Below, in pieces: positions 28,263-54,688 of a DNA stretch of 64,000 nucleotides. Made by a program: the position numbers and the translations under genes. A model generated the notes under the pieces. The model was not told the DNA's origin and ran no database searches. It saw nothing but the letters and a program-made list of their open reading frames with translations. Within the stretch, counting starts at the first letter, position 1. Every line of letters starts with the position of its first letter. Source of the stretch: Petrimonas sp. IBARAKI (GTDB lineage Bacteria > Bacteroidota > Bacteroidia > Bacteroidales > Dysgonomonadaceae); contig AP018040.2 of the NCBI GenBank assembly GCA_002356435.2, forward strand, positions 2,790,001 to 2,854,000. The letters are read 5' to 3'.

Positions 28263-29501
28263 ATGCAAAAAAAAAGACAATTTCAAAGGGCTCTTCTATT
28301 AGCCGCTTTCCTCTTTTTTATTTTCGGATTTCTAACCTGGGTAAACGGTACGTTGATTGCCTTTTTCAAAAAAACTTTTGAACTTAACCATTTCAACTCT
28401 TATTTGGTTACATTTGCCTATTACCTGTCTTACACGCTTATGGCGATACCTTCATCCATGGTTTTGAAGAAGATCGGGTTCAAAAACGGTATGTCGACGG
28501 GCTTACTGATAATGGCATTAGGATGTGGACTCTTTATCCCGGCAGCCAAATTGGCATCATATCCCATTTTTTTAGTTGGACTGTTTACCACCGGCATCGG
28601 GTTAACGCTTCTCCAAACGGCTATTAATCCCTATGTTACTTTAATGGGGCCCCATGAAAGCGGTGCCAAACGCATCAGTTTTATGGGGTTCTCCAATAAA
28701 ATCGGAGGCATCATCGGGCAACTGGTGTTGGGTAGCATCTTGCTGCATGGGGCAACAAACATCGTACAACAGGATGAACTTAATAAAATAATATTTCCCT
28801 ATTTAATTATTACGGCCTTGTTTGTTGTGATGTCCTTTATTCTGAGAAAAAACAATTGGTTCCCTGAAATCGAAGAGGAAAAGGAGGAGCACAAAACTCT
28901 TTCAACACACAACGACAAAAAAAATGTATTTCAATTTCCAAACCTGGTTTTAGGGGTAATCGCTTTATTTTGTGCCGGAGCTACAGAAGTAATGGCAATT
29001 GACAGCATTATTAATTACGGGATGTCGTTAGGTTTTCCGGAAACCCGGGCTAAACTTTTCGGGTCATTTACTTTAATTGCAATGATAATGGGCTATCTAT
29101 CGGGAATGATCCTGATACCCAAATATATAAAACAAGAGAAACTTTTAAAATATGGAGCCATTACAGGTAGTATTTTGGCAATACTGGTTATATATAGTCA
29201 TTCGTCCGTTTCTGTTTTCATGGTATCGCTACTCGGATTTGTGAATGCTCTGTTTTGGCCGGCTATATGGCCACTCGCTTTGGAAGGCTTGGGGCGCTTT
29301 GTAAAAATAGGCTCAGCCCTGCTTATTATGAGCGTAGTTGCAGGTGCTGTTGTACCGTTGCTTTATGGATTAATTGCAGACACAATTGACAGTACTCAAA
29401 AAGCTTATTGGATACTTATACCGTGTTATTTATTTATTGCATATTATGGTTATTTCGGATACAAAATTAAAAGTTGGGATAAACAAAATCCATGGGAATG
29501 A
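28263..29501 (+). CDS. FucP-type sugar MFS transporter
   Basis: 412 residues from the ATG at 28263 (an in-frame TTG two codons earlier is less likely). About 12 transmembrane helices are visible. The opening 'FFIFGFLTWVNGTLIAFFKK' and 'LTLLQTAINPYVTLMGP' match the fucose/glucose/galactose:proton symporter family (FucP/GluP) found in most Bacteroidota glycan loci. It sits after the glycosidase and oxidoreductase genes of the second SusCD locus and should import the monosaccharide, possibly modified, that they release. Substrate cannot be told from sequence. Confidence 0.88.
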   Translation: MQKKRQFQRALLLAAFLFFIFGFLTWVNGTLIAFFKKTFELNHFNSYLVTFAYYLSYTLMAIPSSMVLKKIGFKNGMSTGLLIMALGCGLFIPAAKLASYPIFLVGLFTTGIGLTLLQTAINPYVTLMGPHESGAKRISFMGFSNKIGGIIGQLVLGSILLHGATNIVQQDELNKIIFPYLIITALFVVMSFILRKNNWFPEIEEEKEEHKTLSTHNDKKNVFQFPNLVLGVIALFCAGATEVMAIDSIINYGMSLGFPETRAKLFGSFTLIAMIMGYLSGMILIPKYIKQEKLLKYGAITGSILAILVIYSHSSVSVFMVSLLGFVNALFWPAIWPLALEGLGRFVKIGSALLIMSVVAGAVVPLLYGLIADTIDSTQKAYWILIPCYLFIAYYGYFGYKIKSWDKQNPWE

Positions 29502-30132
29502 ATAGAACAATAATTAAAGGAAAGATCTTTCTCAATAAGGTAATCCTGGAAGGATACACCGGAATACCGCAGGGTAAGTTTCGCTAATACCGGATCAGAC
29601 GCTTCATATATATCGCTGCACTAAGCAACCCTATGGCAATTCTTAACTAAAAACACAATCTTCTTTTTTTAGCATTACGACCGTGTTATTTTTCGCATTT
29701 TATCACAAATATTTCGTGAATTATCTAAATTGAACACAAGAAAAACTTTTCCTTTGAACATTAAAATATTTTAATTTCTATTGTTTTATTTTCAGTATGT
29801 GAAATGTGCGACAAAAGGGATCAACCAGTAACCCTTTGTATTACTTGGCTTTGTGTGTGTGGAAGAAAGCAATGGGAAAAATACATCAATCCTCTTGCTT
29901 TCAGATTAATTAAGCTAATTTTATAAATTATTAAACCAATAAATATTGAGACCAAAGAACATAAAAAAAAACCTTTAATAAGTACTCTGTAAAAAGAATA
30001 CAGAAGTATTGAAGACATTGCTATGCAAATTAGTATAAAAATTTATGAGTAAATAAAACTCTCTTATTATGTGTTAAACTTTTAAAGAAAAATCGCAAAT
30101 ACCATTTGCAACATTTATTAAAAAAAAGTAAT
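29502..30132. other. Intergenic region and leader of the third susC
   Basis: About 630 AT-rich bases with no credible gene. It should contain the promoter and a long 5' leader. A stretch at 29788-29814 resembles 15103-15130 upstream of the second susC (shared ATTTTC...AGT.TG.GAAA.TG..ACAA pattern), and TTTGCAACAT at 30105-30114 parallels TTTGCCACAT at 15381-15390. The two susC genes therefore share leader sequence as well as coding sequence. Confidence 0.6.
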
Positions 30133-40669: not shown

Positions 40670-41938
40670 ATGATTGATCAATCAAAATCTATCCAAGCAA
40701 AACTCCCAAAAAATGCATGGTTAATTGTTTTTTTACTTTTCTGGGTGGGTGCTTTAAATTATCTGGATCGCAACACAATCGCCACCATGAGGAGTTCAAT
40801 CATTGAATCTATTCCGATGACAGATGCACAATTCGGAATATTGACTTCTGTGTTTCTATGGACCTATGCATTCTTCAGCCCTGTTGCCGGATTTATAGCA
40901 GACCGTTTTAGCCGGAGCAAAGTAATTATTTTCAGTTTCTTCATATGGTCATTAGTAACCTGGTTAACATCTTATGCGTCAACTTACAATCAACTTTTGG
41001 CAACAAGAGCTTTGATGGGAATAAGCGAAGCCTTTTATTTGCCAGCAGCAGGAGCATTAATTATTGATTATCACAGAAACTCCACTCAATCTATCGCAAC
41101 CAGTATTCACCTAACCGGAGTTACTCTTGGTTCCACATTAGGATTTATTGGAGGATGGTTAGCTGAAAAACACACCTGGCACTACGCTTTTCATGTTTTT
41201 GGCATATTGGGATTGGTCTATGCAATAATACTTCTGTTTCTTTTAAAAGACATACCCAAGAATTCAAGTGAAAGCAATAATAAGAATGAATCACAAGAAA
41301 AAGAAACAAATGGAAATGTCAATTTTGGATTAGCGGTTGTTGATCTGTTTAAAAATAGATCATTTATCTATTTGTTTTTATTCTGGGGTATTTTGGGAAT
41401 TGTCGGATGGACTATTATGGCTTGGCTACCAACTTTTTTTAAAGAACAGTTTAATCTTTCACAGAGTATGGCAGGCTTTTACGCAACCGCATTTCTTTAT
41501 CCTGCGTCCATAGTAGGATTATTGTTTGCTGGCATCCTATCTGACCGTTGGAGCAAGAGAAATAAGTATGCACGTATATTTGTTCCTATACTTGGCCTGT
41601 TAATTGCGGCTCCGTGTATCTTCTTTGCAAGCTATACCTCAATTTTATACATATCCATAGTTCTTTTTATGTTATATGGATTAACCAGATCATCAGTGGA
41701 AGCTAATTTTACACCAATTGCATGTAGTATTGTCAGTTTACGATATAGATCAACCGGATTAGGAATTTTAAACATGATTGCTACCACTGTTGGAGGTTTT
41801 GGCATCTATCTTACAGGAATGTTTCGTGATTTAGAGATAAGCCTTAAAATAATTTATCAAATGGTTGCTTTAAGCATAATCATTTGCGTATTTTTATTAT
41901 GGTTAATCAAGAGAGAACAAAGTAAAAAAAAGGTCTAG
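40670..41938 (+). CDS. MFS transporter, anion:cation symporter (ACS) type
   Basis: 422 residues with about 12 transmembrane helices and a central cytoplasmic loop (about 200-220). The opening 'NYLDRNTIATM' and 'DRFSRSKVIIFSF' match the ACS branch of the major facilitator superfamily, which carries hexuronates, aldonates and other sugar acids. As the first gene of a 14-gene block with very short gaps, it probably imports the compound that the following enzymes degrade, which suggests that the compound or a derivative is negatively charged. Confidence 0.85.
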   Translation: MIDQSKSIQAKLPKNAWLIVFLLFWVGALNYLDRNTIATMRSSIIESIPMTDAQFGILTSVFLWTYAFFSPVAGFIADRFSRSKVIIFSFFIWSLVTWLTSYASTYNQLLATRALMGISEAFYLPAAGALIIDYHRNSTQSIATSIHLTGVTLGSTLGFIGGWLAEKHTWHYAFHVFGILGLVYAIILLFLLKDIPKNSSESNNKNESQEKETNGNVNFGLAVVDLFKNRSFIYLFLFWGILGIVGWTIMAWLPTFFKEQFNLSQSMAGFYATAFLYPASIVGLLFAGILSDRWSKRNKYARIFVPILGLLIAAPCIFFASYTSILYISIVLFMLYGLTRSSVEANFTPIACSIVSLRYRSTGLGILNMIATTVGGFGIYLTGMFRDLEISLKIIYQMVALSIIICVFLLWLIKREQSKKKV

Positions 41939-42000
41939 TTCCACTATAAAAAAACTCGTATCAGATAAAATTAATATGATTTTCAGATAAAAACCCTTTT

Positions 42001-43002
42001 ATGAATCAAGTTTTTTATAATGAATCAGATCGTATTGTCTGGGAAGAAGACCTTGAGGACTTTATTCCTTACAAGATCTTTGACGCTCATGTTCACTTTT
42101 GGGACGATTCTTTTTTGCCATTGAAAGATCCTCAACGAAATAATTTTGTAAATTCTGATTTACAAATAACCGAGAGGTGGAACAAACAGATGTTTCCTGG
42201 TCGTGACTTTGATTATTTGGTATTTGGTATGCCACTAGCTAATGTTGATATAAAAGCCAATAATGAATTTGTTGTATCAGAACTTGCAGGAAAACCAAAT
42301 TCAAGAAAAAACAGACTGGTTACTCCTGAATGTAAAACTGAAGATATTTATAATGACGTTGTGAAGTATAATTTTGTGGGAATGAAACCGTATCGTCAGT
42401 TTTCCACCACAGGTGATATTAATCAATGTCGTATTCAAGACTTCTTGACACACCCACAGATGGAATTGGCTAATGAAATGGGGTTGTTTATTACATTACA
42501 TTTGTCTCGTTATCACGGGTGTGCGGATGAACAAAACCTGATTGACTTAGAAGAATATACCACAAAGAAATATCCTAATATAAAATGGATACTTGCTCAC
42601 TGTGCACGTAGTTTTACATACTGGCCTCTTCAAAAGGCAATTAACAGACTACGTCAAATACCCAACATATGGTATGACATATCTGCAGTTTCCGATGTGA
42701 TGGCACAATATACTTTACTCAGTAAAGAAGATCATCGGAGAATTTTATATGGTTCAGATAATTTCACGGCAAATGCCTTTCACGGAAGATATGTAGCTAT
42801 GGGAAGATTCTGGTATCAAATAGGAACGCCGGAATATGCGAAAAAAAATAATATTCATACAAATTCAAAACCTATATTGGCTATTTATGAGCAATTGTTA
42901 GCCTTTAAACATGCAGCACAACTTGCTCAATTAAGAACAGAACAAATTAATGATGTTTTTTATAATAATGCTAAAAAATTGTTTGACCTGAAGTCAATGT
43001 AA
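42001..43002 (+). CDS. Amidohydrolase-superfamily protein (Amidohydro_2 type)
   Basis: 333 residues, cytoplasmic. The metal-binding start of the barrel is FDAHVHFWDD (His30 and His32). 'WILAHCARSF' supplies a further His, and 'ILYGSDNFTANAFHG' the C-terminal Asp. This is the Amidohydro_2 class (lactonases, decarboxylases and hydrolases such as sugar-acid lactonases). In the operon it precedes an aminotransferase and a pyruvate-type aldolase, so it may open a lactone or hydrolyse an amide of the imported sugar acid. Reaction not identifiable. Confidence 0.75.
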   Translation: MNQVFYNESDRIVWEEDLEDFIPYKIFDAHVHFWDDSFLPLKDPQRNNFVNSDLQITERWNKQMFPGRDFDYLVFGMPLANVDIKANNEFVVSELAGKPNSRKNRLVTPECKTEDIYNDVVKYNFVGMKPYRQFSTTGDINQCRIQDFLTHPQMELANEMGLFITLHLSRYHGCADEQNLIDLEEYTTKKYPNIKWILAHCARSFTYWPLQKAINRLRQIPNIWYDISAVSDVMAQYTLLSKEDHRRILYGSDNFTANAFHGRYVAMGRFWYQIGTPEYAKKNNIHTNSKPILAIYEQLLAFKHAAQLAQLRTEQINDVFYNNAKKLFDLKSM

Positions 43003-43045
43003 TTAACAGTGATAATAATTCATTTTTTTATGCTAGATAAAAAAT

Positions 43046-44353
43046 ATGTCAAGAAGTCAAGAGTTATATAAAGAAGCGAAAAAGTTAATACCGGGAGGTG
43101 TCCAATTGTTGTCTAAGCGTCCAGAACAATTTTTACCAGAATTCTGGCCAACTTATTACAAAAAAGCAAAAGGTTGTGAGATATGGGATTTGGACGATAA
43201 TAAATATATTGATATGAGTCTCATGGGAATTGGGTCTTGTATATTAGGTTATGCTGATGATGATGTAAATTCAGCTGTATTAAAAGTTATTGAAACTGGG
43301 AACATGACTACATTGAATGCACCGGAAGAAGTGATACTGGCAAAAAAAATTATTGAACTTCATCCATGGGCAGAGATGGTTCGCTATGCACGTACCGGAG
43401 GCGAAGCAATGAGTGTAGCTGTCAGGATAGCAAGAGCTTCAACTAGAAAAGACATCATATTGTTCAGCGGTTATCATGGATGGCACGATTGGTATTTATC
43501 CGCTAATATTTCTAGTGATGCAGCCCTCGATGGTCATTTATTACCAGGGCTCAAACCGGCAGGTGTTCCAAGAAGTTTGAAAAACACTTCATATCCTTTT
43601 TTTTACAACGATGAAGAAGAGTTCTTGTCTCTCATTAGTAGATATGAGAATAATATTGGAGGAGTAGTTTTAGAAACTGTCAGAAATCTGAACCCCAACA
43701 AGAGTTTTTTAGTAACTTTAAAAAAAGAAACTATTCGTTTGAATATACCATTAATTGTTGATGAAATCTCAAGTGGATTTAGACTAAACTGTGGAGGAGC
43801 ACATTTGGTGCTTGGTGTGAAACCGGATATTGCCGTTTTCGCCAAAGGTATAAGTAATGGTTATCCTATGGGGATTATAATTGGTAATAAAAAGTATATG
43901 GATGCAGCTCAAAATACTTTTATTAGTAGTACTTATTGGACGGAAAAAATAGGGCCAACTGCTACTCTGGCTACAATAGAGAAAATGGAAAAATTGAAAG
44001 TACAGAGCTATATAATGGAAATTGGAAAAGAAGTTCAAGAAGCATGGATTTTTATGGCAAAAAAACATAATTTAGAAATAAAAGTTAGTGGCATTTATCC
44101 CTTAAGTCATTTTGAATTCGCTGAATTCCCATTAATATTAAAAACCCTGTTTACGCAAGAAATGCTCACAAAGGGCTTTTTGGCAACAACATCATTTTAT
44201 CCTTCTTATGCTCATAAACAGCAACATATTAAAAAATATATTTGTGCAATCGATCAAACATTTAAAATAATTAAACAATCGCTGAAAGAAGGAAATCCTA
44301 AGACGTATTTAAAAGGTCCAGAATGTCAATCAGGGTTTAAACGTTTGACTTAA
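43046..44353 (+). CDS. Class III PLP-dependent aminotransferase (GSA-aminomutase-like)
   Basis: 435 residues. PLP-binding lysine Lys267 in FAKGISNGYPMG, Asp239 in IVDEISSGFR, the phosphate-contact ARTGGEA (115-121) and the SGYHGWHDWY motif (141-150) match the glutamate-1-semialdehyde aminomutase branch of class III aminotransferases. Members outside haem synthesis move amino groups on sugars or polyamines. The operon setting, with deacetylase and deaminase-like enzymes, suggests it transaminates an amino- or keto-sugar intermediate rather than making haem precursors. Confidence 0.8.
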   Translation: MSRSQELYKEAKKLIPGGVQLLSKRPEQFLPEFWPTYYKKAKGCEIWDLDDNKYIDMSLMGIGSCILGYADDDVNSAVLKVIETGNMTTLNAPEEVILAKKIIELHPWAEMVRYARTGGEAMSVAVRIARASTRKDIILFSGYHGWHDWYLSANISSDAALDGHLLPGLKPAGVPRSLKNTSYPFFYNDEEEFLSLISRYENNIGGVVLETVRNLNPNKSFLVTLKKETIRLNIPLIVDEISSGFRLNCGGAHLVLGVKPDIAVFAKGISNGYPMGIIIGNKKYMDAAQNTFISSTYWTEKIGPTATLATIEKMEKLKVQSYIMEIGKEVQEAWIFMAKKHNLEIKVSGIYPLSHFEFAEFPLILKTLFTQEMLTKGFLATTSFYPSYAHKQQHIKKYICAIDQTFKIIKQSLKEGNPKTYLKGPECQSGFKRLT

Positions 44354-44381
44354 AACAGTCTAATTTAATTGGAATTATATT

Positions 44382-45176
44382 ATGAGAGAAAGTCGTGTAT
44401 TGAAAAAATTAAGAAACGGAGAAGTTGTAATTTGTTTTAAACTGAACTTATCAGGGGGAGAAGTTGCAGAAATTGCAGCCATGTCAGGATTTGACTGCCT
44501 ATGGGCTGATCGTGAACATGTTGCACAGGACTGGTCGGATATAAAAGCACAGAACTGGGTGGCTAAAGCATACGATACAGATTTGATGGTACGCGTTTCA
44601 CGGGGGAGTTACAGTGACTTGATAAAACCGTTGGAACTGGATGCCACCGGAATTTTAGTTCCACATATCATGAATGTGGAAGACGCAAAAAATATAATCC
44701 ATTATACCCGATTCCATCCTGTCGGCAGACGCCCGATTGATGGGGGAAATGCTGACGGTGGATATACGAACATTGCTTTTGATGAATACCTGAGAAAAGC
44801 AAATGAACAACGGTTTATTGCCTTACAGATTGAAGATCCTGAACCGTTGGATGATTTGGAAGCAATTGCTGCATTGGAAGGATACGATATGTTGTTTTTT
44901 GGACCCGGCGATTTCAGCCAGGGCATCGGTGCCCCTGGCGAATGGGAGCATCCGCAACTAACAGAAACACGCAGACGGGTAGCAGAAGTTGCATGTAAAT
45001 ACGGAAAATTTGCAGCAACTGTGGGAAGTCCGCAAAATGCCCAGGAACTAATCGACATGGGCTACCGTTTTATCAGTATGGGTGCTGACGTGATCGGATT
45101 AAGTTCATACTGCCATAACATTATGAACAACATCAATCAGGTAAAAGAAAAAAACAAATCTGCCGGAGTCTATTAA
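44382..45176 (+). CDS. HpcH/HpaI-family pyruvate aldolase
   Basis: 264 residues. Class II pyruvate-aldolase hallmarks: His46 in DREHVAQ (usual DxEH, with Arg in the middle), Arg71 in MVRVSRG, the metal ligand Glu151 in LQIEDPE, and Asp177 in FGPGDFSQG. Family enzymes cleave 2-keto-3-deoxy sugar acids or similar compounds to pyruvate plus an aldehyde. It ends two bases before the aldo/keto reductase gene, which could reduce the aldehyde product or act on a related aldose. Confidence 0.82.
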   Translation: MRESRVLKKLRNGEVVICFKLNLSGGEVAEIAAMSGFDCLWADREHVAQDWSDIKAQNWVAKAYDTDLMVRVSRGSYSDLIKPLELDATGILVPHIMNVEDAKNIIHYTRFHPVGRRPIDGGNADGGYTNIAFDEYLRKANEQRFIALQIEDPEPLDDLEAIAALEGYDMLFFGPGDFSQGIGAPGEWEHPQLTETRRRVAEVACKYGKFAATVGSPQNAQELIDMGYRFISMGADVIGLSSYCHNIMNNINQVKEKNKSAGVY

Positions 45177-45178
45177 CT

Positions 45179-46135
45179 ATGAAAAAAAGAAAATTAGGAA
45201 ATACGGGGATAGAAGTTTCAGAAATTGCTTTTGGCGGTGTTGAAATCGGACTCCCTTATGGTATTGGAGTCAACAGCGACAAGGATATGATCTCCGAAGC
45301 CAAAGCGATAGACCTGCTTCGTTTGGCACTGGATTCGGGTATAAATTTCTTCGATACAGCCCGGATGTACGGTAATAGTGAGCATATTATGGGTAAAGCA
45401 TTCCAAAATAAACGTAGTGAAGTAATATTGGCCACGAAATGTGTCCACCTGCTTGATAACGAAGGAAACTTACCACCAAAAAATAAATTAAGAGAAACTG
45501 TTGAAAAATCCATGTATGAAAGTCTGAAAGCACTTCAAACAGATTATGTGGATATTTTTATGCTTCACCAGGCAACCGTAAAAATTCTTGAAAACGAAGA
45601 AATCCTAACTGTTTTCTCCTCCCTGAAAGATAAAGGGTTATTTAAAGCAGCCGGCGTTTCAACATACACTACAGAAGTAACGGAAAAAACGATAGATATT
45701 GGATTCTGGAATATGATTCAGCTGCCTTTCAATCTTATGGATCAACGGCAAGGAGAACTGTTCAAGAAAGCAGATGAGAAAGGAATCGGCATTGTAGTAA
45801 GATCTGTTTTATTAAAAGGATTGTTAAGTGACAGGGGGAGAAATCTTCACCCAGCCCTCAAAGACGTAGAAAACCACATTGCAAAATACCATGAATTATT
45901 GGAAGGAACCAATTATAAATTGCCGGCATTAGCCACCAAATTTGCATTGTCATTTCCGGAAGTTTCTTCCGTATTGGTGGGTATTGACAAGCAAGAATAT
46001 TTGGAAGAAGCACTAAGAACGGTGGATGGAGTCTATTTAAGTAAAGAAAAACTGAATAAAGCGAGGCAATTAGCATATCCCGAACCGGAATTTATTAATC
46101 TTCCCTATTGGGATAAAATGAAATGGTTAACATAA
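45179..46135 (+). CDS. Aldo/keto reductase
   Basis: 318 residues with the catalytic tetrad in place: Asp59 and Tyr64 in FFDTARMYG, Lys87 in ILATKC and His130 in FMLHQA. It is of the class found in bacterial sugar dehydrogenase/reductase operons (NAD(P)H-dependent, cytoplasmic). The C-terminal 'ALSFPEVSSVLVGI' matches the family cofactor region. Gaps to neighbours of 2 and 18 bases make co-transcription near certain. Confidence 0.88.
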   Translation: MKKRKLGNTGIEVSEIAFGGVEIGLPYGIGVNSDKDMISEAKAIDLLRLALDSGINFFDTARMYGNSEHIMGKAFQNKRSEVILATKCVHLLDNEGNLPPKNKLRETVEKSMYESLKALQTDYVDIFMLHQATVKILENEEILTVFSSLKDKGLFKAAGVSTYTTEVTEKTIDIGFWNMIQLPFNLMDQRQGELFKKADEKGIGIVVRSVLLKGLLSDRGRNLHPALKDVENHIAKYHELLEGTNYKLPALATKFALSFPEVSSVLVGIDKQEYLEEALRTVDGVYLSKEKLNKARQLAYPEPEFINLPYWDKMKWLT

Positions 46136-46153
46136 CAGATAAAATTAAAATAC

Positions 46154-47080
46154 ATGATAAAAATTGGTATAATCGGAATGAGTCCTGGAAATGCTCATCC
46201 CTACTCATGGTCATCTATTATAAATGGAGTTTTTGATGCCGGTGAAATAACGAAAGTCGGTTATCCGGCTGTTGCAAATTATTTAGAAGCAAATAAAGAC
46301 ACACTCGGAATATCCAACGCAAAAGTGACGTGTGTATGGACACAAGACCGCGTAACTTCGGAAAGTATCGCTAAATCAAGCAGAATACCTCTAATAGTGA
46401 ATAAGCTGGAAGATATGATACCTCTCGTGGATGCAATCCTCTTGTCAAGAGATGATCCTGAAAATCATGTAGCTATGGCTAAACCCTTTTTGGAAGCGGG
46501 AATACCTATTTTTGTCGACAAACCACTTGCAAATACAAAAGAAGACCTGCAATACTTTGCTGATGAAAATGCTAAAGGTAAGCTGATCATGTCTTGCTCG
46601 TCCATGCGCTACGCCAACGAAGCCAGGATTGTAAAACAAGAGATTGACTCATTAGGTAAGCTCGAACTTGCAACAGCGGTGGGCAAAAAAGATTGGATCA
46701 AGTACGGCGTTCATATCGTGGAAGGATTATTCTCTATCTTGAATGACCCTAAACCCATATTTGTCAAATCCATAGGCAAAACAAACAAAGAGATCGTGTA
46801 TATTGAGTTTGCTGATGGTTTTCAGGCAACAATACATTTGTTTATGGATATTACGGGTACATTCCAGATATCCTTATTTGGACAACTGGGATGGCGATTA
46901 ATTGATATAAAAAACTCCTACTCTATGTTCAGAGACAACATTATTGAATTTGTCAGATCCGTAGAGCAAGGCACCTCCCGGCTTTCTTTCGATAAAACAG
47001 AAAATATCCTCCGGACCATCATCGCGGCTATCGAAAGTTCCAAGCAAGGAGGGAAAACCATAGATATGTCTAAGTTTTAA
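46154..47080 (+). CDS. Cytoplasmic Gfo/Idh/MocA family oxidoreductase
   Basis: 308 residues with no signal peptide, in contrast to the exported members elsewhere in the window. The Rossmann motif is KIGIIGMSPGNAHPYSW; the catalytic-lysine motif is FVDKPLAN (DKP for EKP). It is shorter than average for the family. It may oxidise or reduce a sugar or cyclitol with NAD(P). It has a 10-base gap to the SDR gene, and together with the aldo/keto reductase it gives the operon three different redox enzymes. Confidence 0.83.
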   Translation: MIKIGIIGMSPGNAHPYSWSSIINGVFDAGEITKVGYPAVANYLEANKDTLGISNAKVTCVWTQDRVTSESIAKSSRIPLIVNKLEDMIPLVDAILLSRDDPENHVAMAKPFLEAGIPIFVDKPLANTKEDLQYFADENAKGKLIMSCSSMRYANEARIVKQEIDSLGKLELATAVGKKDWIKYGVHIVEGLFSILNDPKPIFVKSIGKTNKEIVYIEFADGFQATIHLFMDITGTFQISLFGQLGWRLIDIKNSYSMFRDNIIEFVRSVEQGTSRLSFDKTENILRTIIAAIESSKQGGKTIDMSKF

Positions 47081-47090
47081 CAGATTAAAA

Positions 47091-47867
47091 ATGAACATAA
47101 AAGATTTATTGAATTTAAAAGGCAAAATAATTTTGGTTTCAGGTGGTGCTGGACACTACGGTAAATGCATCGTAGAAGGATTGGCAGAAGCAGGAGGAAC
47201 CGTAATCATTGCTTCCCGTAATATGGATAATATAGTGAAAACTGTGTCTAAATTCCGGGAGGAAGGATGGGATGTACATTCCATGCCCGTTGATCAAGGG
47301 GATCATGACTCTGTTGTAGCTCTGAAAGTGGCAATAACCAAAAAATTTGGAAAATTAGACGTTTTTGTAAATAATGCCGTATCAAGACCGATGAAGACGT
47401 ACAATGATCCCATTGAAAATTTTGCTGAATCCATGCGTATAAATGCGACCGGAGCTATGGACATTTTACGTGAAATGGCAGATTTAATCGAAGAAAGTGG
47501 TGGTGGAAGTATAATAAATATTGCCTCTATGATGGGAATGTTTGGTCCGGATCTTTCCAACTACGAAGGTACGAATATGGGCATACCGCCTCCCGATTAC
47601 TTTTTCCACAGGGCGGGGATAATCAATCTCACCCGGTACCTGGCCCGTATTTATGCCGGGAAAAACATACGGGTGAATTGCGTTAGCCCGGGAGGTTTAT
47701 TCAATAATCAACCCGAGCGCTTCCTGGAGAATTACAACAAAAAAGTTCCTTTGGAAAGAATGGCAAACAACGACGACATAAAAGGCCTGATGGTGCTGTT
47801 GGCATCGGATGCCGGCGCTTATATAAACGGAGAAAACATTTTGATGGATGGCGGAATGCATGCGTAG
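47091..47867 (+). CDS. Short-chain dehydrogenase/reductase with altered catalytic motif
   Basis: 258 residues. Cofactor loop SGGAGHYG (17-24), VNNAV (93-97), Ser146 in NIASMMG, and the C-terminal 'INGENILMDGG' are typical of classical SDRs. The YxxxK motif reads Tyr170-FFH-Arg174, so the normally invariant lysine is arginine. An unusual insertion, 'DLSNYEGTNMGIPPPD', precedes the tyrosine. The same gene otherwise looks intact, so either activity persists with Arg or the protein has another role. Confidence 0.82.
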   Translation: MNIKDLLNLKGKIILVSGGAGHYGKCIVEGLAEAGGTVIIASRNMDNIVKTVSKFREEGWDVHSMPVDQGDHDSVVALKVAITKKFGKLDVFVNNAVSRPMKTYNDPIENFAESMRINATGAMDILREMADLIEESGGGSIINIASMMGMFGPDLSNYEGTNMGIPPPDYFFHRAGIINLTRYLARIYAGKNIRVNCVSPGGLFNNQPERFLENYNKKVPLERMANNDDIKGLMVLLASDAGAYINGENILMDGGMHA

Positions 47868-47908
47868 CACCCCCATACCCCATCGGCGGAAATAATAAGG
47901 TTGAACAT

Positions 47909-49078
47909 ATGCAAAGGAATAATCAAATTGCTTTCAAGGGGATTATAATTTCAGATTCTGAAGTAGTTAAAGGATATCTCACAACAAGTGGAGGAAAAAT
48001 TATCGATATAGGAGAATCTCCTCCGGGATGTGATGTGATTGATTTGGGTGAATCGTATATCACGCCCGGATTCATTGATTTGCATATACACGGCATTCAC
48101 CGCATGCTGGTGGACAACGGTGCGGAAGACTTGAAAGAAATCTGCAAAATTTTACCTCAATACGGAGTTACCGGATTTTTGCCCACACTAGCTCCCAGGC
48201 CTAAAGGAGAAGATGCTGAGTTTCTCTCGGAGTTGTCCAAAACAGAAACTGAAGGAACGGAAGTACTGGGTTTCCACCTGGAAGGGCCGTTTCTCAAGAT
48301 CACAGGAGCTTTAGGCGCCGGGGCCATCTCCGGGGCAGATGAAGGAAGGGTACATGCTCTGATTCATGCGGCGAAACCACATAAAGCGATTTTCAGCATT
48401 TCTCCGGACGTAGACGGAATCGAGAAACTGTTGCCGTTGATGGCAGCCAACGGCACCCCTGTCTTTATGACACACACTGCCGCCACAGTTGAACAAACTC
48501 AGCTAGCCATAGAATTGGGCGTTCGACACGCTACTCATTTCTACGATGTATTCCCCTGTCCCTCTGTTTCCGAACCCGGTGTGCGACCTTGCGGAGCCGT
48601 TGAAGCCATCCTGGCAGACGAGCGGGTAAGTGTGGATTTCATCCTGGATGGCGTACATGTTGACCCCGTGGCGGCAAAAATGTCTTTGATCAGTAAAAGG
48701 AAAGGGCCGGGCAAGGTCTGTCTCGTTACAGATGCCAACGTAGGTGCGGGATTAGAGCCCGGACAATTCTCGTTCGGCAATTTGGGAGATATCTGCTTTG
48801 CGTACAAAGGCGCTCCTGCACGTTCCGTAAAGGACAACACATTGGCAGGGAGTGGCCTGACAATGGACCGGGCTTTAAAAAATGCCGTGAAATGGCTGGA
48901 TTTGGATTTGGTGCAAGCATCAAAGTTGGTAAGCCATCATCCGGCTCAGGTTCTTGGCCTCGGTGATAAGAAAGGATTATTAAAGGAAGGTTACGACGCC
49001 GATTTCGTCGTATTAGATGAAAATCTGGATGTTTTACGAACATGGATAAACGGTAAATGTTTTTTTGAAAGGAAATAA
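47909..49078 (+). CDS. NagA-like N-acetyl-amino-sugar-phosphate deacetylase
   Basis: 389 residues in the amidohydrolase superfamily. NagA landmarks: His59/His61 in GFIDLHIHG, metal ligand Glu125 in FHLEGPF, His189 in THTAA, His210 in ATHFYD, DGVHVDP with His250, and catalytic Asp275 in LVTDA. The classical THLFNAM segment reads ATHFYDVF, so the Asn-Ala pair that contacts the phosphosugar in NagA is changed. Deacetylation of a GlcNAc-6-P-like compound is the likeliest reaction, possibly on a different amino sugar. The following gene starts one base after the stop, indicating translational coupling. Confidence 0.8.
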   Translation: MQRNNQIAFKGIIISDSEVVKGYLTTSGGKIIDIGESPPGCDVIDLGESYITPGFIDLHIHGIHRMLVDNGAEDLKEICKILPQYGVTGFLPTLAPRPKGEDAEFLSELSKTETEGTEVLGFHLEGPFLKITGALGAGAISGADEGRVHALIHAAKPHKAIFSISPDVDGIEKLLPLMAANGTPVFMTHTAATVEQTQLAIELGVRHATHFYDVFPCPSVSEPGVRPCGAVEAILADERVSVDFILDGVHVDPVAAKMSLISKRKGPGKVCLVTDANVGAGLEPGQFSFGNLGDICFAYKGAPARSVKDNTLAGSGLTMDRALKNAVKWLDLDLVQASKLVSHHPAQVLGLGDKKGLLKEGYDADFVVLDENLDVLRTWINGKCFFERK

Positions 49079-49079
49079 T

Positions 49080-50060
49080 ATGAAACAAACTCAAAAATTT
49101 GAGCCTGACCCTGGGCATAATACAGGACATCAGCAATTCGACTTCAATCCCTCTGAATGGGTACCCTTTAAGGACAAAAAAGAAATCAACAGGGTGTTAG
49201 CCATCAAAAGAGAGGATATAGAGAGACACGAAAACCCCGATTTTAAAATTAAGGTTTTACCTGATTCAGATGTCGAATATTATTGGATAACGGACATGTT
49301 CAGAAGAATCAAGCATTCTTCGGATACCGGGGAAAAACTCGTAATGATACTCCCCAATCCTGCCCCGCTTTACAGACATCTGGCCAGATTAATCAATGCT
49401 TGTAATATAGACTGCCGGAATGTCTATGCTTTTGCTATGGATGAATACGCCGATGAAAACGGAAATATTGCGCCTGAAGGGTGGGAATTTGGTTTTACTC
49501 ACGCGATGATGAAATATTTCTATTATGAACTGGATAAAAGGCTGAGGCCGCCAAAAGAGCAGTTTGTCGGATTTACCAACAAGAATGTACATGATTACAG
49601 TAAAATGATTGCTGACCGTGGTGGGGCCGACATATGCTACAGTGGGCCCGGGTGGACAGGCCATTTAGCCTTTATCGAACCGGATGCGCCCGAATTCCGG
49701 GGTTCCCTGGAAGACTGGAAACAGATGGGAGCAAGGGTCTGCACGTTAAGTCCTTTCACTCTCGCTCAAAACTCATTACACGGTGTTTTTGGCAAGAGCG
49801 GAAATTTGGCGGCAGTGCCTCCAAAGGCTGCGACAATAGGCCCCGCTGATGTAATAAATGCCAAACACCGCTTTGACACACACGCTATTACTGTACACGG
49901 TACAACCACCGCATGGCAACGATTTACTACGCGTCTCGTACTGCACGGACCGGTAACGCCGCTTGTGCCCGAATCCATCCTTCAGACATTGAGGACCGAC
50001 GTATACGTATCGGAAACCATCGCACAAAACATAGAAACAGACTGGAACAAAGGATATTAA
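49080..50060 (+). CDS. NagB/6-phosphogluconolactonase-superfamily protein
   Basis: 326 residues from the ATG at 49080, preceded by GAAAGGAA; an in-frame TTG at 49065 is rejected. The glucosamine-6-phosphate deaminase fold is indicated by MDEY (Asp121) and SGPGWTGHLAFIEP (188-201). In NagB this second motif is GIGxDGHIAFNEP; here the Asp before Gly-His is Thr193 and the Asn before Glu200 is Ile, while His195 and Glu200 remain. About 55 extra N-terminal residues precede the domain. A deaminase/isomerase of a non-standard amino-sugar phosphate is likely; the changes argue against plain NagB. Confidence 0.72.
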   Translation: MKQTQKFEPDPGHNTGHQQFDFNPSEWVPFKDKKEINRVLAIKREDIERHENPDFKIKVLPDSDVEYYWITDMFRRIKHSSDTGEKLVMILPNPAPLYRHLARLINACNIDCRNVYAFAMDEYADENGNIAPEGWEFGFTHAMMKYFYYELDKRLRPPKEQFVGFTNKNVHDYSKMIADRGGADICYSGPGWTGHLAFIEPDAPEFRGSLEDWKQMGARVCTLSPFTLAQNSLHGVFGKSGNLAAVPPKAATIGPADVINAKHRFDTHAITVHGTTTAWQRFTTRLVLHGPVTPLVPESILQTLRTDVYVSETIAQNIETDWNKGY

Positions 50061-50073
50061 AAAAACATTAAAG

Positions 50074-51390
50074 ATGACTGAATTAAAAGCCGGCGCAGCA
50101 ACCGTAAATATTACCCCGCAAGAATCACATTTCTTGTTCGGTTACCCGTTTGTTGATAGAATGAGTACCGGCACACACGATGATTTGTTAAGTTCAGCTT
50201 TGTATTTAACGGATGGGAAGAATCAGGTTTTGTTTATTTCCAACGACGTTATATACGTGAGTAAAGCATCTACAGCTCGGATAAGAGAAGAAATTTCTAA
50301 AGAAACCGGGATACAGGCTTCCAATATACTGGTAGCGGCAACACATACACATTCAGCTCCGGTTACTGTAGATGTGGTAATCAGTGCGAACGACCCAATC
50401 GTTCCAAAAGTTGATAGAAACTACCTGAAATTCATGGAGGAGAGCACCGTAAAAGCAGCTTGCCAGGCAGTTGAGAATGCAACGTTGGCGGAGATTGCCG
50501 TTGTTGTTGGAGACGCAACCGGTGTGGGAACCAATCGACACAATCCTGAGTGGGCAAAAGACACGGATGTTCCGGCAGTATTTGTCAAAAATAAGTACAA
50601 TGATGAATTTATCAGTTGTATGCTGATTTGCAACATGCACCCTACCATATTGCACGAAAACTCAACACTGTACAGCAGTGATTTTCCGCATTTTGTCCGA
50701 AAAACCCTTCAGGAAGTAGTTTTAGGAAATGACCGTCCGGTCATCTATTTTACCGGGACTGCCGGGAATCAAAGCCCGAGACACGTGACAAAATCCAACA
50801 CATTTGAAGAGGCCAAACGAATAGGACAGATTGTTGCAGATTCCATCAGCTCCAAGCTAACGGAGACGGTGACTTTCTCCTCCCATATACCTGTTTCAGC
50901 CGCTCAAAAATTCGTCGATTTGCCCAAACGGGCTTTTCCCTCGATTGAATGGGCAGTTGAACATCGCGACAAAACCAAAAAACGTTTCGAAGAGCTTAAA
51001 AAGAATTCAGAAATTCCGCAGGAGGTCCGCACGGCAGAAGTGAACTGGTTTGGTTCAGAAGAACTCCTGTATTTGTCGAAATTAGCTCAAGACAACAAAT
51101 TGGGAAAAGCATACCAAAGCTCTCTACCTGCTGAAATACAAATAATTAAAGTGGGTGAATGGAAATTTGTAGCCTGGCCAGGGGAGGTGTTTGTAGAGTA
51201 CGGCATTGAACTGAAAAATCATGCTAAAGAGATCGCTTTGATAACCTATGCCAATGGCGAACTTCAAGGTTATCTCGTTACCCAGGAAGCTCAGGACGGA
51301 GGTTATTATGAAGCTGGAAATTCTTTCTTCGATTACAAGGCCGGTAAATTAATGCTGGCCGAAACAATCAAGGAATTAAAATCGATGTGA
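50074..51390 (+). CDS. Cytoplasmic protein with neutral-ceramidase N-terminal-like domain
   Basis: 438 residues without a signal peptide. The opening 'GAATVNITPQE' and the zinc motif VAATHTHSAP (His91, His93), plus NMHPTILHENS and GTAGNQSPR, match the PF04734-type domain first known from neutral ceramidases, which hydrolyse an amide bond with zinc. True ceramidases are secreted and much longer. A cytoplasmic, single-domain form inside a sugar operon is more likely to hydrolyse an N-acyl or related group on a small polar substrate. One base separates it from the kinase gene. Confidence 0.72.
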   Translation: MTELKAGAATVNITPQESHFLFGYPFVDRMSTGTHDDLLSSALYLTDGKNQVLFISNDVIYVSKASTARIREEISKETGIQASNILVAATHTHSAPVTVDVVISANDPIVPKVDRNYLKFMEESTVKAACQAVENATLAEIAVVVGDATGVGTNRHNPEWAKDTDVPAVFVKNKYNDEFISCMLICNMHPTILHENSTLYSSDFPHFVRKTLQEVVLGNDRPVIYFTGTAGNQSPRHVTKSNTFEEAKRIGQIVADSISSKLTETVTFSSHIPVSAAQKFVDLPKRAFPSIEWAVEHRDKTKKRFEELKKNSEIPQEVRTAEVNWFGSEELLYLSKLAQDNKLGKAYQSSLPAEIQIIKVGEWKFVAWPGEVFVEYGIELKNHAKEIALITYANGELQGYLVTQEAQDGGYYEAGNSFFDYKAGKLMLAETIKELKSM

Positions 51391-51391
51391 A

Positions 51392-52807
51392 ATGGGATTC
51401 TATCTCGGAATAGATTTAGGAACAAGTTACTTCAAGGCGGGCATATTCGATGAACAAGGAAATCTCGCCGGACTGGGACGTTGTCTTGTTATTAAACAAA
51501 CAGACGATGGAAAGATCTGTGAATTGCCAATCGCTGATTTTTGGGTTACACTACGTAAATGCATTAATCGGGCAATTGAAAAGGCAGAAATCAACCCAAA
51601 CGAGCTAATTGCTGTTTCCTATTCATCGCAAGCCAACAGCTTTATCCTGTTAGATGAAACGGATCATCCGTTAACTCCATTGATTCTGTGGCCGGACAAA
51701 AGAGCCGGACAAATTCCTTCCGTTCTGGACTCTTTATTGGGAAACCCTAATTTTCTAAAGAAAACAGGATTAGGAATTTTGCCCGGTTTGCAATCAATGG
51801 CAGCTAAAATAGTTTGGTTTCAAGAGAACAAGCCGGAAATCTGGGAGAAGGTAAACAGCATTGCTTCCGTTTCAGACTACCTGACATTCTCGTTAACCGG
51901 ACAAAAAGTAAGCGACTTCAGTACATCTTCCATGACAGGACTGTTCGATCTACTTGAAGAAAAGTGGTGGAACGAAGCATTAGAAACACTGAATATCAAC
52001 AAAAAATTCTTGTTTTCTCCCAAAAGAACAGGAAGTTTTGTCGGCACTTTAGCCGGAGAAAGAGCTATACAATTGGGATTGTCTGCCGACACGAAATTCT
52101 TCCTGGGAGGATTAGACCACCATATTGTTGCTGTAGGTGCTGGCTTAACGAGTTCAACCCAAATTTCCGAATCAACAGGCACTGTGCTGGCATGTGTGAA
52201 TTATCATCAAGGATTCTCTCCGAGAGCGGGAATAAACATAGCTCCAGGCTTAAGAAAAGAATATTATTTTCAAATGGCTTTCAATGAAAATGGAGCTACA
52301 GCACTAGAGTGGTATCAAAAAAAGTTTGCTCCTGAATTATCCATTGAAGAACTGTTAAAGATGGCCGAAGGCATTGCCCCGGGAAGTGATGGTTTAAAAG
52401 CTTCTCCCTGTGTTGATAAGTTTGAATCACTTTCGGGATTCCAGAACATTACAAACAAGCATTCCCACGGACATTTTGTAAGGGCGATTCTCGAATCGAC
52501 TGGTTTAAGTTTACGAGACTTAATTTGCAGTCTGGATAAAGAAAACGTATCAGAGGTGTTAATAGCTTCAGGAGGAGGAGCCCGGAGCCTTTTGTGGATG
52601 CAAATAAAGGCCGATATCCTCAATAAAGTTTTTATGGTACCCGAATGCAGTGAATTGGCCTGCCAGGGGGCCGCATTGATCGGAGCGACAGGGAATATCC
52701 AACAGGAAGAGAGGAAAGAGTCTTTCGGAAAACAGGCGAGATATGCTCAGCTGATAAACCCAAATCCAGCAGATGTAGAAAAATATAAATTGGAAAATAA
52801 ATTATGA
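51392..52807 (+). CDS. FGGY-family carbohydrate kinase
   Basis: 471 residues. ATPase-fold motifs: GIDLGTSYFKAGIFD (residues 6-20), LWPDKRAG with the sugar-contacting Asp, GGLDHHIVAVGAG, and the C-terminal ASGGGARSLLWMQIKADI and CQGAALIGA segments. The family phosphorylates pentuloses, hexoses, aldonates, glycerol and tetritols. It overlaps the SIS gene by four bases (ATGA), so kinase and isomerase are probably made in step. Substrate unknown; the kinase is the only one in the operon and so probably commits the imported sugar to the pathway. Confidence 0.86.
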   Translation: MGFYLGIDLGTSYFKAGIFDEQGNLAGLGRCLVIKQTDDGKICELPIADFWVTLRKCINRAIEKAEINPNELIAVSYSSQANSFILLDETDHPLTPLILWPDKRAGQIPSVLDSLLGNPNFLKKTGLGILPGLQSMAAKIVWFQENKPEIWEKVNSIASVSDYLTFSLTGQKVSDFSTSSMTGLFDLLEEKWWNEALETLNINKKFLFSPKRTGSFVGTLAGERAIQLGLSADTKFFLGGLDHHIVAVGAGLTSSTQISESTGTVLACVNYHQGFSPRAGINIAPGLRKEYYFQMAFNENGATALEWYQKKFAPELSIEELLKMAEGIAPGSDGLKASPCVDKFESLSGFQNITNKHSHGHFVRAILESTGLSLRDLICSLDKENVSEVLIASGGGARSLLWMQIKADILNKVFMVPECSELACQGAALIGATGNIQQEERKESFGKQARYAQLINPNPADVEKYKLENKL

Positions 52808-53409
52808 AAGAATTAAAAGAAGATGCGATCCTGCAACGGGCAATACAGTCCTTAAGGATTGAAAGCAAGGCCATTTCGGATATCATTGATTACCTGGACA
52901 AAGAGAGCTTTTTAAAAGCCGTTGAAGTATTGAGCAGCTGTCCCAAGATAATAACCTGCGCCAGCGGGTCGTCCGGTATCGCTGCAAAAAAGTTCGCACA
53001 CTCGTTGTGCTGCATCGAGAGAAACGCACAATTCCTGTCGCCGGCGGAAGCCATCCACGGAGGAATGGGATGCATGAAAAAGGGAGATGCGGTAGTGATG
53101 GTCTCCCGGGGAGGAAAGACCGCCGAGCTGTTACCCATCATCGAGGTGTGCAATAAAAAAGAGGTGATCCTTATCGGGGTTACCGAGAACCTGGATGCTC
53201 CCCTGGCTAAAAATTCACAAATCGTTGTCCCCATGAAAATCGAGAAGGAGAGTGACGGGTTGAATGTCATGGCTACGGCCAGCTTCGTAGCCACGATTGC
53301 CATTTTTGACGCCATGCTTGCCTCCATTATGGAAACCACCGGGTATTCGTTGGAGCAGTTTGCCTTAATCCACCCGGGCGGCGCTGTCGGCAGCAGGCTT
53401 AACGGGTAA
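52804..53409 (+). CDS. SIS-domain sugar-phosphate isomerase (KdsD/GutQ-like, no CBS domains)
   Basis: 201 residues. One SIS domain with CASGSSGIAAKKFAHSL (sugar-phosphate loop), MVSRGGKTAEL, and the KdsD-type tail HPGGAVGSRL. KdsD/GutQ arabinose-5-phosphate isomerases normally carry two C-terminal CBS domains; this protein ends right after the SIS domain. Its neighbours, a kinase overlapping upstream and a TIM-like isomerase 39 bases downstream, suggest aldose/ketose isomerisation of a phosphorylated catabolic intermediate rather than lipopolysaccharide Kdo synthesis. Confidence 0.82.
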   Translation: MKELKEDAILQRAIQSLRIESKAISDIIDYLDKESFLKAVEVLSSCPKIITCASGSSGIAAKKFAHSLCCIERNAQFLSPAEAIHGGMGCMKKGDAVVMVSRGGKTAELLPIIEVCNKKEVILIGVTENLDAPLAKNSQIVVPMKIEKESDGLNVMATASFVATIAIFDAMLASIMETTGYSLEQFALIHPGGAVGSRLNG

Positions 53410-53448
53410 ATAGAGTATCTGAAACCAAAAATAAAATTACCAAATAAT

Positions 53449-54150
53449 ATGTATAAGGGATTAACAATAAAACCGCCATTTTTTGAAATTGGACCTAAAG
53501 CTTACATGTATGGGGAAAGGATGCTGAGGCTGGCAAAAGCGGCCGATGAAGCTTCCGTCAAGTACGATGTGAGAATAATTCTAACACTGCAACCGTCGGA
53601 TATTTACCTGCTGGCCAGGGAGACGGAACACGTGCTCATTTTTGCTCAACACATGGATCCGGTCCCGATAGGCAGGGGAAACGGCTCCATCCTTCCAGAG
53701 GCGCTAAAAGCAGCCGGCGCTGTCGGTGTCATTCTCAACCACGCCGAAAAACCGATGACCCTGGCTGATCTGTCCCGGGCAATTAGACGGGCGGATGAAG
53801 TGGGCCTGGTTTCAATGGTATGTGCCGACTCCATCCGGGAGGCAGAGGCAGTTGCCCATCTTTCTCCCAATATTATCGTGGCTGAACCCACGGAATTGAT
53901 CGGCACGGGACAGACCAGCGACGAGGAGTACGTGATTGCAACCACTTCGGCCATAAAAAAGGTAAACACGGAGATTCAGGTATTACAAGCAGCCGGAATC
54001 AAGAACGGGCAGGATGTTTACAGGACGATCAGGGCGGGGGCTGACGCCACGGGCACCACCAGCGGGATCATGAGAGCAGAGGATCCGGAGGCGATGCTGG
54101 ATGAAATGATCGGTGCCGTTCGAAAAGCATGGGATGATTTAAATAAATAA
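53449..54150 (+). CDS. TIM-family isomerase, non-canonical GPK subgroup
   Basis: 233 residues, the short archaeal-type length. Catalytic His98 (ILNHAEKP) and Glu146 (VAEPTELIGTG) align with those of triose-phosphate isomerase, and the phosphate-binding GADATGTTSG loop is recognisable. The N-terminal NxK motif of glycolytic TIM is replaced by Gly15-Pro-Lys17 (EIGPKAY): the lysine is kept, but the asparagine is lost. TIM homologues in tetritol operons isomerise erythrulose phosphates, so a tetrulose- or other ketose-phosphate substrate is plausible. It is probably not the housekeeping glycolytic enzyme. Confidence 0.75.
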   Translation: MYKGLTIKPPFFEIGPKAYMYGERMLRLAKAADEASVKYDVRIILTLQPSDIYLLARETEHVLIFAQHMDPVPIGRGNGSILPEALKAAGAVGVILNHAEKPMTLADLSRAIRRADEVGLVSMVCADSIREAEAVAHLSPNIIVAEPTELIGTGQTSDEEYVIATTSAIKKVNTEIQVLQAAGIKNGQDVYRTIRAGADATGTTSGIMRAEDPEAMLDEMIGAVRKAWDDLNK

Positions 54151-54171
54151 TTGATTTACAAACTAACTAAG

Positions 54172-54178
54172 AAAGGAG
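54172..54178 (+). promoter_or_regulatory. Strong Shine-Dalgarno sequence before yjbQ-like gene
   Basis: AAAGGAG ends nine bases before the ATG at 54188. Such a full-strength site is unusual for Bacteroidota and is not seen before most genes in this window; it fixes the start of the yjbQ-like gene. Confidence 0.7.
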
Positions 54179-54187
54179 ATTAAAAAA

Positions 54188-54688
54188 ATGAAACTTTACA
54201 GGGGAACAATTGACCTTCAGTCAAAAGATCACAGGCCGGATTTTCACAACGTGACGGACGAAGTAAAAAGAATTGTGAATGAATCCGGCGTTCAGAACGG
54301 CATTTGTGTCGTTTATTCGCACCACACCACCTGCTCGGTGATGACGCAGGAATGTTCGCACGACCTCAATTTTTTCGGCAGGGAATACCTGCAACAGGAT
54401 TTGAACAACATCATGGAGAAGCTGGTGCCGACATGCAGAACCGAAGGGCAATACTTGCATCCGGGTCCGGAGCACATTAAGTTTGCGCTTACCTTCCCGG
54501 ACGAAGAACCGAAAGGCAGCCTTAACACTGACGCCCACTTACGTTCCGTGTTTTTCGGGCGTTCCGAAACCATACCTCTGGTTGACGGAAAGCTCTCGTT
54601 GGGCGATTTTGGGTTCATTTACTTTGTGGACTGGGACCAGATCCGTGAAAGAAAAAGAGTCTGTGAAGTACAAATTATCGGGGAATAG
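54188..54688 (+). CDS. YjbQ/UPF0047 family protein
   Basis: 166 residues. 'VVYSHHTTCSVMTQE' (42-56, with His45/His46) and the later PEHIKFAL segment match the PF01894 family, a small beta-sandwich metal-site protein. Some members show weak thiamine-phosphate-synthase activity; the cellular role is unsettled. It is the last gene of the 14-gene block, 37 bases after the TIM-like gene and before a palindromic terminator-like element. Members of this family occasionally travel with sugar catabolic genes, but its contribution here is unknown. Confidence 0.8.
   Translation: MKLYRGTIDLQSKDHRPDFHNVTDEVKRIVNESGVQNGICVVYSHHTTCSVMTQECSHDLNFFGREYLQQDLNNIMEKLVPTCRTEGQYLHPGPEHIKFALTFPDEEPKGSLNTDAHLRSVFFGRSETIPLVDGKLSLGDFGFIYFVDWDQIRERKRVCEVQIIGE

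Follow-up and report, generated by a model that had tools for sequence, protein, structure and literature searches.

The closest described systems for the genes considered here are the NagP/NagK-NagA-NagB pathway for N-acetylglucosamine (GlcNAc), the Aga pathway for N-acetylgalactosamine (GalNAc; AgaA-AgaS-tagatose-6-phosphate), and, for single proteins, neutral ceramidase and archaeal triose-phosphate isomerase (TIM). The passages on mycobacterial NagA in one study describe the 6-phosphate as held by an Asn, an Ala backbone, and an Arg, report no activity on GlcNAc, and record loss of function when the conserved Arg is altered (PMC6016474); a passage on NagB in another study has the phosphate bound by the start of helix alpha-1 (PMC4281351). 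Here we analyze a 14-gene operon of Petrimonas sp. IBARAKI from the Proteiniphilum/Dysgonomonas family, whose genome is a 3.69-Mb single contig; the window is the whole 64,000-nucleotide stretch at positions 2,790,001 to 2,854,000 of contig AP018040.2. The operon combines NagA-like and NagB-like proteins devoid of the known 6-phosphate contacts with CerN, a short ceramidase-fold amidase, and an FGGY kinase, and this combination recurs across phyla. An earlier note on this DNA had proposed that an N-acylated amino-sugar acid or another modified amino sugar is broken down here by a non-textbook route, next to GH109 enzymes; for an N-acylated amino sugar, this proposal is supported. Among the matches listed in the open-access full-text literature, none describes this operon.

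Core genes and loss of the known 6-phosphate contacts

Relatives of the NagB-like protein were collected by a tblastn scan of GTDB species genomes (E up to 1e-3), which yielded 433 confirmed stretches. The best 80 of these, labeled as seven phyla plus KSB1, formed the locus census, and residues were compared in 80 NagB-like and 65 NagA-like sequences, with NagB positions in E. coli numbering. Asp72, His143, and Glu148 are retained in every NagB-like sequence. At the same time, in all 80 of them Asp141 is replaced by Thr and Arg172 by Leu or Met, Lys208 is lost, and a deletion removes TGG from the phosphate loop (TGG[ST]P). We take Asp72, Asp141, His143, and Glu148 to be the catalytic residues, and presumably Arg172 and Lys208 contact the phosphate; Asp141 presumably assists ring opening in NagB. 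The NagA-like proteins show a parallel pattern. The metal ligands (Glu, His, His) and the catalytic Asp are retained in 65 of 65 sequences, and the phosphate-binding Arg in none, its position being occupied by Thr (36), Ser (21), Ile (4), Lys (2), His (1), or Val (1). At the phosphate Asn position, Asp is found in 57 sequences, Asn in seven, and Ala in one. Lost 6-phosphate contacts together with mostly retained catalytic residues suggest that deacetylation and deamination or isomerization would take place on an unphosphorylated sugar.

The AlphaFold2 model of the NagB-like protein (mean predicted local distance difference test, pLDDT, 86.1; active-site loop 190-199 below 50) has the NagB fold. 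Its best PDB matches are NagB structures (TM-score 0.84 by target length to 2bkv), followed by 6-phosphogluconolactonases (6PGL). The genome encodes a canonical NagB elsewhere (414 bits) that keeps the loop, Asp141, Arg172, and Lys208, and a canonical NagA (297 bits) that keeps the Arg and has Ser for Asn, in a separate locus with AraC-like, NagP-like, and NagB-like genes. A bacterial-type TIM is also encoded elsewhere (322 bits). Thus, the NagA-, NagB-, and TIM-type proteins of the operon are extra paralogs.

The earlier note had suggested a neighborhood search in other genomes, and there the run nagA-nagB-cerN-FGGY recurs with its order unchanged in further genera and phyla, so the arrangement is not due to chance. 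Beside the best nagB-like loci, a nagA-like gene is found in 71 of 80 cases, cerN in 64, and the FGGY kinase gene in 57. These and the other neighbor counts come from tblastn at E up to 1e-8, are depressed by loci shorter than the operon, and take no account of relatedness when presence patterns are compared. The NagB-like protein is 61-90% identical across the compared genomes. It is uncommon, being present in 8 of 150 related genomes, our own included; in a sample of the phylum (n = 395), it was found only in our genome and, as a remote (26%) protein with Asp at the 141 position by eye, in one other.

CerN scores 47.2 bits against the PF04734 cut-off of 32.1. Residues H91, H93, H189, E371, and Y412, which we take to be the putative ceramidase zinc-site residues, are invariant in 28 aligned sequences. 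The model (pLDDT 94.3) has the neutral ceramidase fold and matches 2zws and 4wgk at 14-16% identity in the structural match. The protein has 438 residues, and no signal peptide is evident by eye. The FGGY kinase falls short of the xylulokinase model TIGR01312 (235.7 vs. 380.25 bits).

Three further genes follow the core. The best matches of the SIS protein are GutQ, KpsF, and KdsD (PDB best hit 3fxa) rather than AgaS-type deaminases. The TIM homolog has 1hg3 as its best PDB hit. In 21 of 21 aligned sequences it carries Gly at the position that we take to be the catalytic Asn (INFK to EIGPK), with Lys17, His98, and Glu146, presumably the other catalytic residues, conserved. YjbQ may serve phosphorylated trioses or tetroses. 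Archaeal-type TIM and YjbQ genes are also found as an adjacent pair on plasmids: in Shinella with genes for a short-chain dehydrogenase (SDR), a TIM-barrel protein, and an FGGY kinase, and 3' of a class II aldolase gene on two Enterococcus plasmids and one plasmid of L. paracasei, where a phosphotransferase system (PTS) is present in E. faecium and L. paracasei.

All 14 open reading frames (ORFs) at 40670-54688 lie on the forward strand with gaps of -4 to 62 bases (Table 1), as the ORF list confirms, and Pfam and NCBIfam bear out the families named in the earlier note. For the nagB-like gene, the most likely start is the ATG at 49080, one base past nagA, rather than the TTG at 49065 chosen by the ORF lister. 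Scans for consensus promoters and terminators gave chance-level counts (52 against 47.0 +/- 6.8 and 16 against 14.4 +/- 4.7 in shuffled sequences, respectively).

Table 1. Features of the window (coordinates count from its first nucleotide)
Feature	Coordinates	Strand	Evidence
GH109 C-terminal domain (PF21252)	9625-11049	-	Pfam
GH109 C-terminal domain (PF21252)	22930-24378		Pfam
GH109 C-terminal domain (PF21252)	26597-28072		Pfam
NagP/FucP-type MFS importer	28257-29501	+	NF046060 354.6 bits, below cut-off 625
Apparent remnant, 5' end of resident nagA	29498-29587	+	Local DNA alignment vs. G008
BNR_2	at 36545		Pfam
BNR_2	at 39418		Pfam
MFS importer, ACS/galactonate-like	40670-41938	+	Best NCBIfam TIGR00893 (D-galactonate type), below cut-off; 29/80 loci
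Amidohydro_2 protein, variable cassette	42001-43002	+	3/80 loci
GSA-aminomutase-like class III aminotransferase, variable cassette	43046-44353	+	Specific match in 3/80 loci
HpaI-type pyruvate aldolase (HpcH/HpaI family)	44382-45176	+	15/22 SIS-bearing loci
Aldo/keto reductase (AKR)	45179-46135	+	17/80 loci
Gfo/Idh/MocA oxidoreductase	46154-47080	+	13/80 loci, AKR also in each
Short-chain dehydrogenase (SDR)	47091-47867	+	17/80 loci
NagA-like deacylase, core	47909-49078	+	TIGR00221 216.5 bits vs. cut-off 225.65; 71/80 loci
NagB-like isomerase/deaminase, core	49080-50060	+	No Pfam match; TIGR00502 48.6 bits vs. cut-off 236.9
CerN, short ceramidase-fold amidase, core	50074-51390	+	PF04734 (Ceramidase_alk) over cut-off; 64/80 loci
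FGGY ketose-type kinase, core	51392-52807	+	XylB-like, below cut-off; 57/80 loci
SIS isomerase, KpsF/GutQ type	52804-53409	+	22/80 loci
Archaeal-type TIM homolog, catalytic Asn to Gly	53449-54150	+	NF003302 over cut-off; 21/80 loci
YjbQ/UPF0047 protein	54188-54688	+	TIGR00149 over cut-off; 20/80 loci, TIM in all 20

Candidate reaction order, substrate, and alternative explanations

Judging from these sequences, the chances are about even that the operon serves an N-acylated amino sugar, most likely of the GalNAc type, that is imported without phosphorylation, deacylated, isomerized or deaminated, and phosphorylated by the FGGY kinase only afterwards. In the order that we infer, the neighboring GH109 enzymes would free the sugar, and a NagP-type or ACS-type carrier would import it without phosphorylation. 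The acyl group of the free sugar would be removed by CerN and/or the NagA-like enzyme. From the free amino sugar, the NagB-like protein would then produce a ketose; for galactosamine, this would be D-tagatose. FGGY kinases usually phosphorylate ketoses and polyols, in keeping with a kinase that follows the isomerase. Finally, the SIS and TIM-like isomerases and an aldolase would take the sugar phosphate into central metabolism. In most Bacteroidota loci that carry SIS, this aldolase would be of the HpaI or dihydrodipicolinate synthase (DHDPS) type; some loci from other lineages have a DeoC/LacD-type aldolase or a phosphofructokinase as candidates for the lower steps. With tagatose as the ketose, the LacD-type aldolase and the phosphofructokinase of some relatives would fit below it.

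The substrate is most likely of the GalNAc type, with 6-deoxy or uronic amino sugars as the main alternative. The GalNAc type is favored by the NagP-type carrier and by linkage to GH109, which we take to be the alpha-N-acetylgalactosaminidase family. Six of the ten GH109 C-terminal domains of the genome lie within 63 kb 5' of the operon, in one 50-kb region (genome 2768212-2817655). In relatives, GH109 genes were seen near the core in three distinct places among 90 loci searched (tblastn, 43-72% identity): adjoining NagP-nagA-nagB-cerN-FGGY in Dysgonomonas (L038/L021), between cerN and FGGY in L040, and within 10 kb in L023/L032. Of the neighbors named in the earlier note, the GH109 and BNR proteins were confirmed by PF21252 and BNR_2 matches; the putative propeller gene at 37850 had no Pfam or NCBIfam hit. 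The argument from a sugar-acid importer proved weak: an ACS-type carrier does occur in 29 of 80 loci, but a NagP/FucP-type carrier directly precedes nagA in a genome of the same genus (G008, locus L024), in Dysgonomonas (L038), in L028, and in L032/L023.

Several points weigh against the kinase-last order for a GalNAc-type sugar. The loss of the phosphate contacts is also compatible with a phosphate located elsewhere or with a new binding mode, and two of the 65 NagA-like sequences carry Lys in place of the Arg. With Asp141 lost, the NagB-like protein may not be a deaminase at all; its active-site loop is modeled at low confidence. Four other NagB homologs of the genome vary at Asp141, Arg172, or the loop, and three of them keep Lys208. 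Since single changes are thus not unique to the NagB family of the operon, the argument rests on the joint loss in the NagB-like and NagA-like proteins. A single acetyl group would not call for two deacylases, and the SIS and TIM proteins are no obvious consequence of a tagatose route. Few relatives carry GH109 near the core. Finally, on a Nitratireductor plasmid (L110), cerN lies beside a nagA that keeps both the Asn and the Arg, with NanE and ROK genes nearby; the NagB of that locus keeps Lys208 and lacks the loop, Asp141, and Arg172. Since CerN there adjoins a phosphate-type route, it is not tied to the permuted order.

A bolder and distinctly tentative proposal is that the core represents a third N-acetylhexosamine route, shared by several phyla that include Bacteroidota, Planctomycetota, and Verrucomicrobiota. 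GalNAc, or a sugar like it, would be deacetylated in free form by a ceramidase-fold and/or NagA-fold enzyme and deaminated to a free ketose by a NagB without the phosphate site, with the FGGY ketose kinase acting last. CerN would then be a new kind of sugar deacetylase, recognizing the 2-acylamino-1,3-diol motif of ceramide.

The loss of the 6-phosphate contacts would also be expected if the kinase acted last on amino sugars without a C6 hydroxyl, either 6-deoxy sugars (N-acetylfucosamine, N-acetylquinovosamine) or amino-uronic acids (GalNAcA, ManNAcA), with a fuculokinase-like FGGY kinase or with a pyruvate aldolase cleaving a 2-keto-3-deoxy acid. A pyruvate-type aldolase (HpaI or DHDPS) is present in 20 of the 22 SIS loci, an ACS-type carrier occurs at the frequency given above, and the aldehyde dehydrogenase, AKR, and SDR partners could handle lactaldehyde. 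A gene similar to UxaE (tagaturonate epimerase) adjoins GH109 in the window (11099-12346, reverse strand), but none of the 90 loci searched has a match to it close to the core. The NagP-type carrier and the GH109 linkage indicate neutral N-acetylhexosamines, and a 1-phosphate poorly suits SIS and TIM-type phosphate isomerases. We regard this explanation as rather unlikely. Catabolism of sialic or other nonulosonic acids, suggested by the pyruvate aldolase and BNR proteins, is a remote possibility: the DHDPS-type gene does not come close to the NanA cut-offs, and the core exists without either aldolase, for example in L038. Catabolism of a diamino sugar, considered in view of the two deacylases and an aminotransferase, is not supported; the class III aminotransferase AT4 is present in 35 of 80 loci and in none of the 22 with SIS.

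The skeleton of NagA, deaminase, and kinase recognized in the earlier note stands as far as the families go. They are the textbook set, most catalytic residues are retained, and variation in the phosphate site is seen in other NagB homologs of this genome as well, so that one could imagine a classical route with new 6-phosphate binding, the FGGY kinase acting on the N-acetyl sugar, NagA deacetylating, and NagB deaminating. Such a kinase-first order is improbable, because neither the NagA-like nor the NagB-like protein has the known 6-phosphate contacts. Three separate NagB contacts and the NagA Arg are lost in every census sequence, whereas in the same genome the canonical NagB keeps its contacts and the canonical NagA its Arg; moreover, we know of no FGGY kinases for N-acetylhexosamines. 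About as improbable is an explanation in which the NagB-like protein is an aldose-ketose isomerase or lactonase of a sugar, polyol, or nucleoside-sugar pathway and nitrogen comes from elsewhere. The loss of Asp141 and the structural similarity to 6PGL would agree with it, as would the company of distant relatives (31-32% identity), with genes for a nucleoside hydrolase, adenosine deaminase, and ribokinase on a Vibrio nigripulchritudo plasmid, and for GlpR and a class I aldolase on two Haloarcula plasmids. However, NagB structures match better than 6PGL, and the frequent NagA-like and CerN partners imply an amide substrate.

Variable modules and history of the operon

The 14 genes comprise two modules, a core and a variable cassette. 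The earlier assumption that all of them form one pathway is not supported by comparison of loci, in which the Amidohydro_2 protein and the aminotransferase similar to glutamate-1-semialdehyde (GSA) aminomutase are each found in only three of 80 cases. The core is nagA-nagB-cerN-FGGY; SIS-TIM-yjbQ is an extension almost confined to Bacteroidota. All 22 SIS loci are from this phylum, ten of them from one tight clade of mostly ruminant bins, and outside it TIM and YjbQ occur together in one Lacunisphaera. Other partners vary (Table 1): AT4 is found in 35 of 80 loci, a DeoR regulator in 29, HpaI in 23 (with some weak matches of 29-34% identity outside SIS loci), a DeoC/LacD aldolase in 14, a DHDPS-type aldolase in five, and a phosphofructokinase, named by sight of the sequence, in four. 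The 22 SIS loci have either an HpaI-type (15) or a DHDPS-type (5) pyruvate aldolase, never both; two have neither, one of which (L055) begins at nagB. Over all loci this exclusion is not significant (Fisher p 0.31). SIS alone is present in 22 loci, AT4 alone in 35, neither in 23, and both in none, a pattern confounded by relatedness because all SIS loci are from Bacteroidota and ten from a single clade. In all three loci that have them (L035, L090:11607-13940, and L091:14506-16839), the Amidohydro_2 protein and the GSA-type aminotransferase form a single ORF (778 residues in L090 and L091), which suggests joint action of the window genes at 42001-44353.

Two small proteins of about 160 residues each, present in 10 and 9 of 80 loci (among them L033:5425-6355, L030, L034, L037, L040, L096, and L098), are encoded upstream of the core; in five loci they accompany the DHDPS-type aldolase. 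They have Cys/His motifs by eye and no Pfam or NCBIfam match. In the nagB tree, four Niabella sequences and L040 group with sequences from outside Bacteroidota (the bootstrap is not settled), and two changes are required for Bacteroidota and six for Planctomycetota. This is suggestive of inter-phylum transfer, although bins may be mislabeled.

Comparison with related genomes indicates that the operon of the window is composite. In G008 the gene order is NagP-nagA-nagB-cerN-FGGY-SIS-TIM-yjbQ-DUF4838-CBM9-lacA. In the window, approximately 18 kb separate NagP and nagA, an interval that holds a second pair of SusCD genes along with BNR proteins and the seven genes running from MFS to SDR. The NagP gene of the window is 91% identical to the one directly 5' of nagA in G008 and 71-73% identical to those in L038 and L028; this gene probably encodes the importer that the core operon had originally. 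An apparent nagA remnant follows it: its ATG overlaps the NagP stop, and it reads IKGKIFLNKVILEGY against IKGKIILDDRILEGY in G008, with 11 of 15 residues identical in the best run. Its alignment score of 20.5 is slightly above the highest score among 300 shuffles (19.5), giving modest support. Over its whole 5' end, the present nagA aligns with that of Proteiniphilum X52 but not with G008, and further on it is nearer to G008 in places, a pattern expected from recombination between two loci within nagA. The cassette MFS-HpaI-AKR-Gfo-SDR also precedes nagA in L026, L029, and L036; thus, the union of core and cassette is not unique to this genome. The G008 draft has nagB in two pieces with stops between them and an early stop in the nagA frame, by assembly error or decay.

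Comparison with known systems

If the kinase does act last, GlcNAc-6-phosphate deacetylase and GlcN-6-phosphate deaminase are wrong names for these proteins. The operon also places short ceramidase-like amidases, archaeal-type TIMs of bacteria, and YjbQ, three groups that are poorly understood, in a concrete setting. With the GlcNAc pathway it shares a NagA-type metal deacetylase, the NagB fold, and a NagP-type carrier. It differs in the loss of the known 6-phosphate contacts from both enzymes, in Thr for Asp141 of NagB, in an FGGY kinase replacing the NagK type, and in the additional CerN, SIS, TIM, and YjbQ. The Aga pathway is similar in its possible substrate, in a SIS protein, and, in some relatives, in a LacD-type aldolase; however, the SIS protein here is KpsF/GutQ-like rather than AgaS-like, a NagB-like protein is present, and there is no PTS or PfkB-type protein among the 14 genes. 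CerN has the fold and putative zinc-site residues of neutral ceramidase, and is distinguished from it by its short length, by the lack of an evident signal peptide, by low identity in the structural match, and by its sugar-operon setting. Similarly, the TIM homolog resembles the archaeal enzyme in its best PDB hit, in the NF003302 match, and in the active-site Lys, His, and Glu, whereas Gly in place of the catalytic Asn, pairing with YjbQ, and a bacterial-type TIM elsewhere in the genome set it apart.

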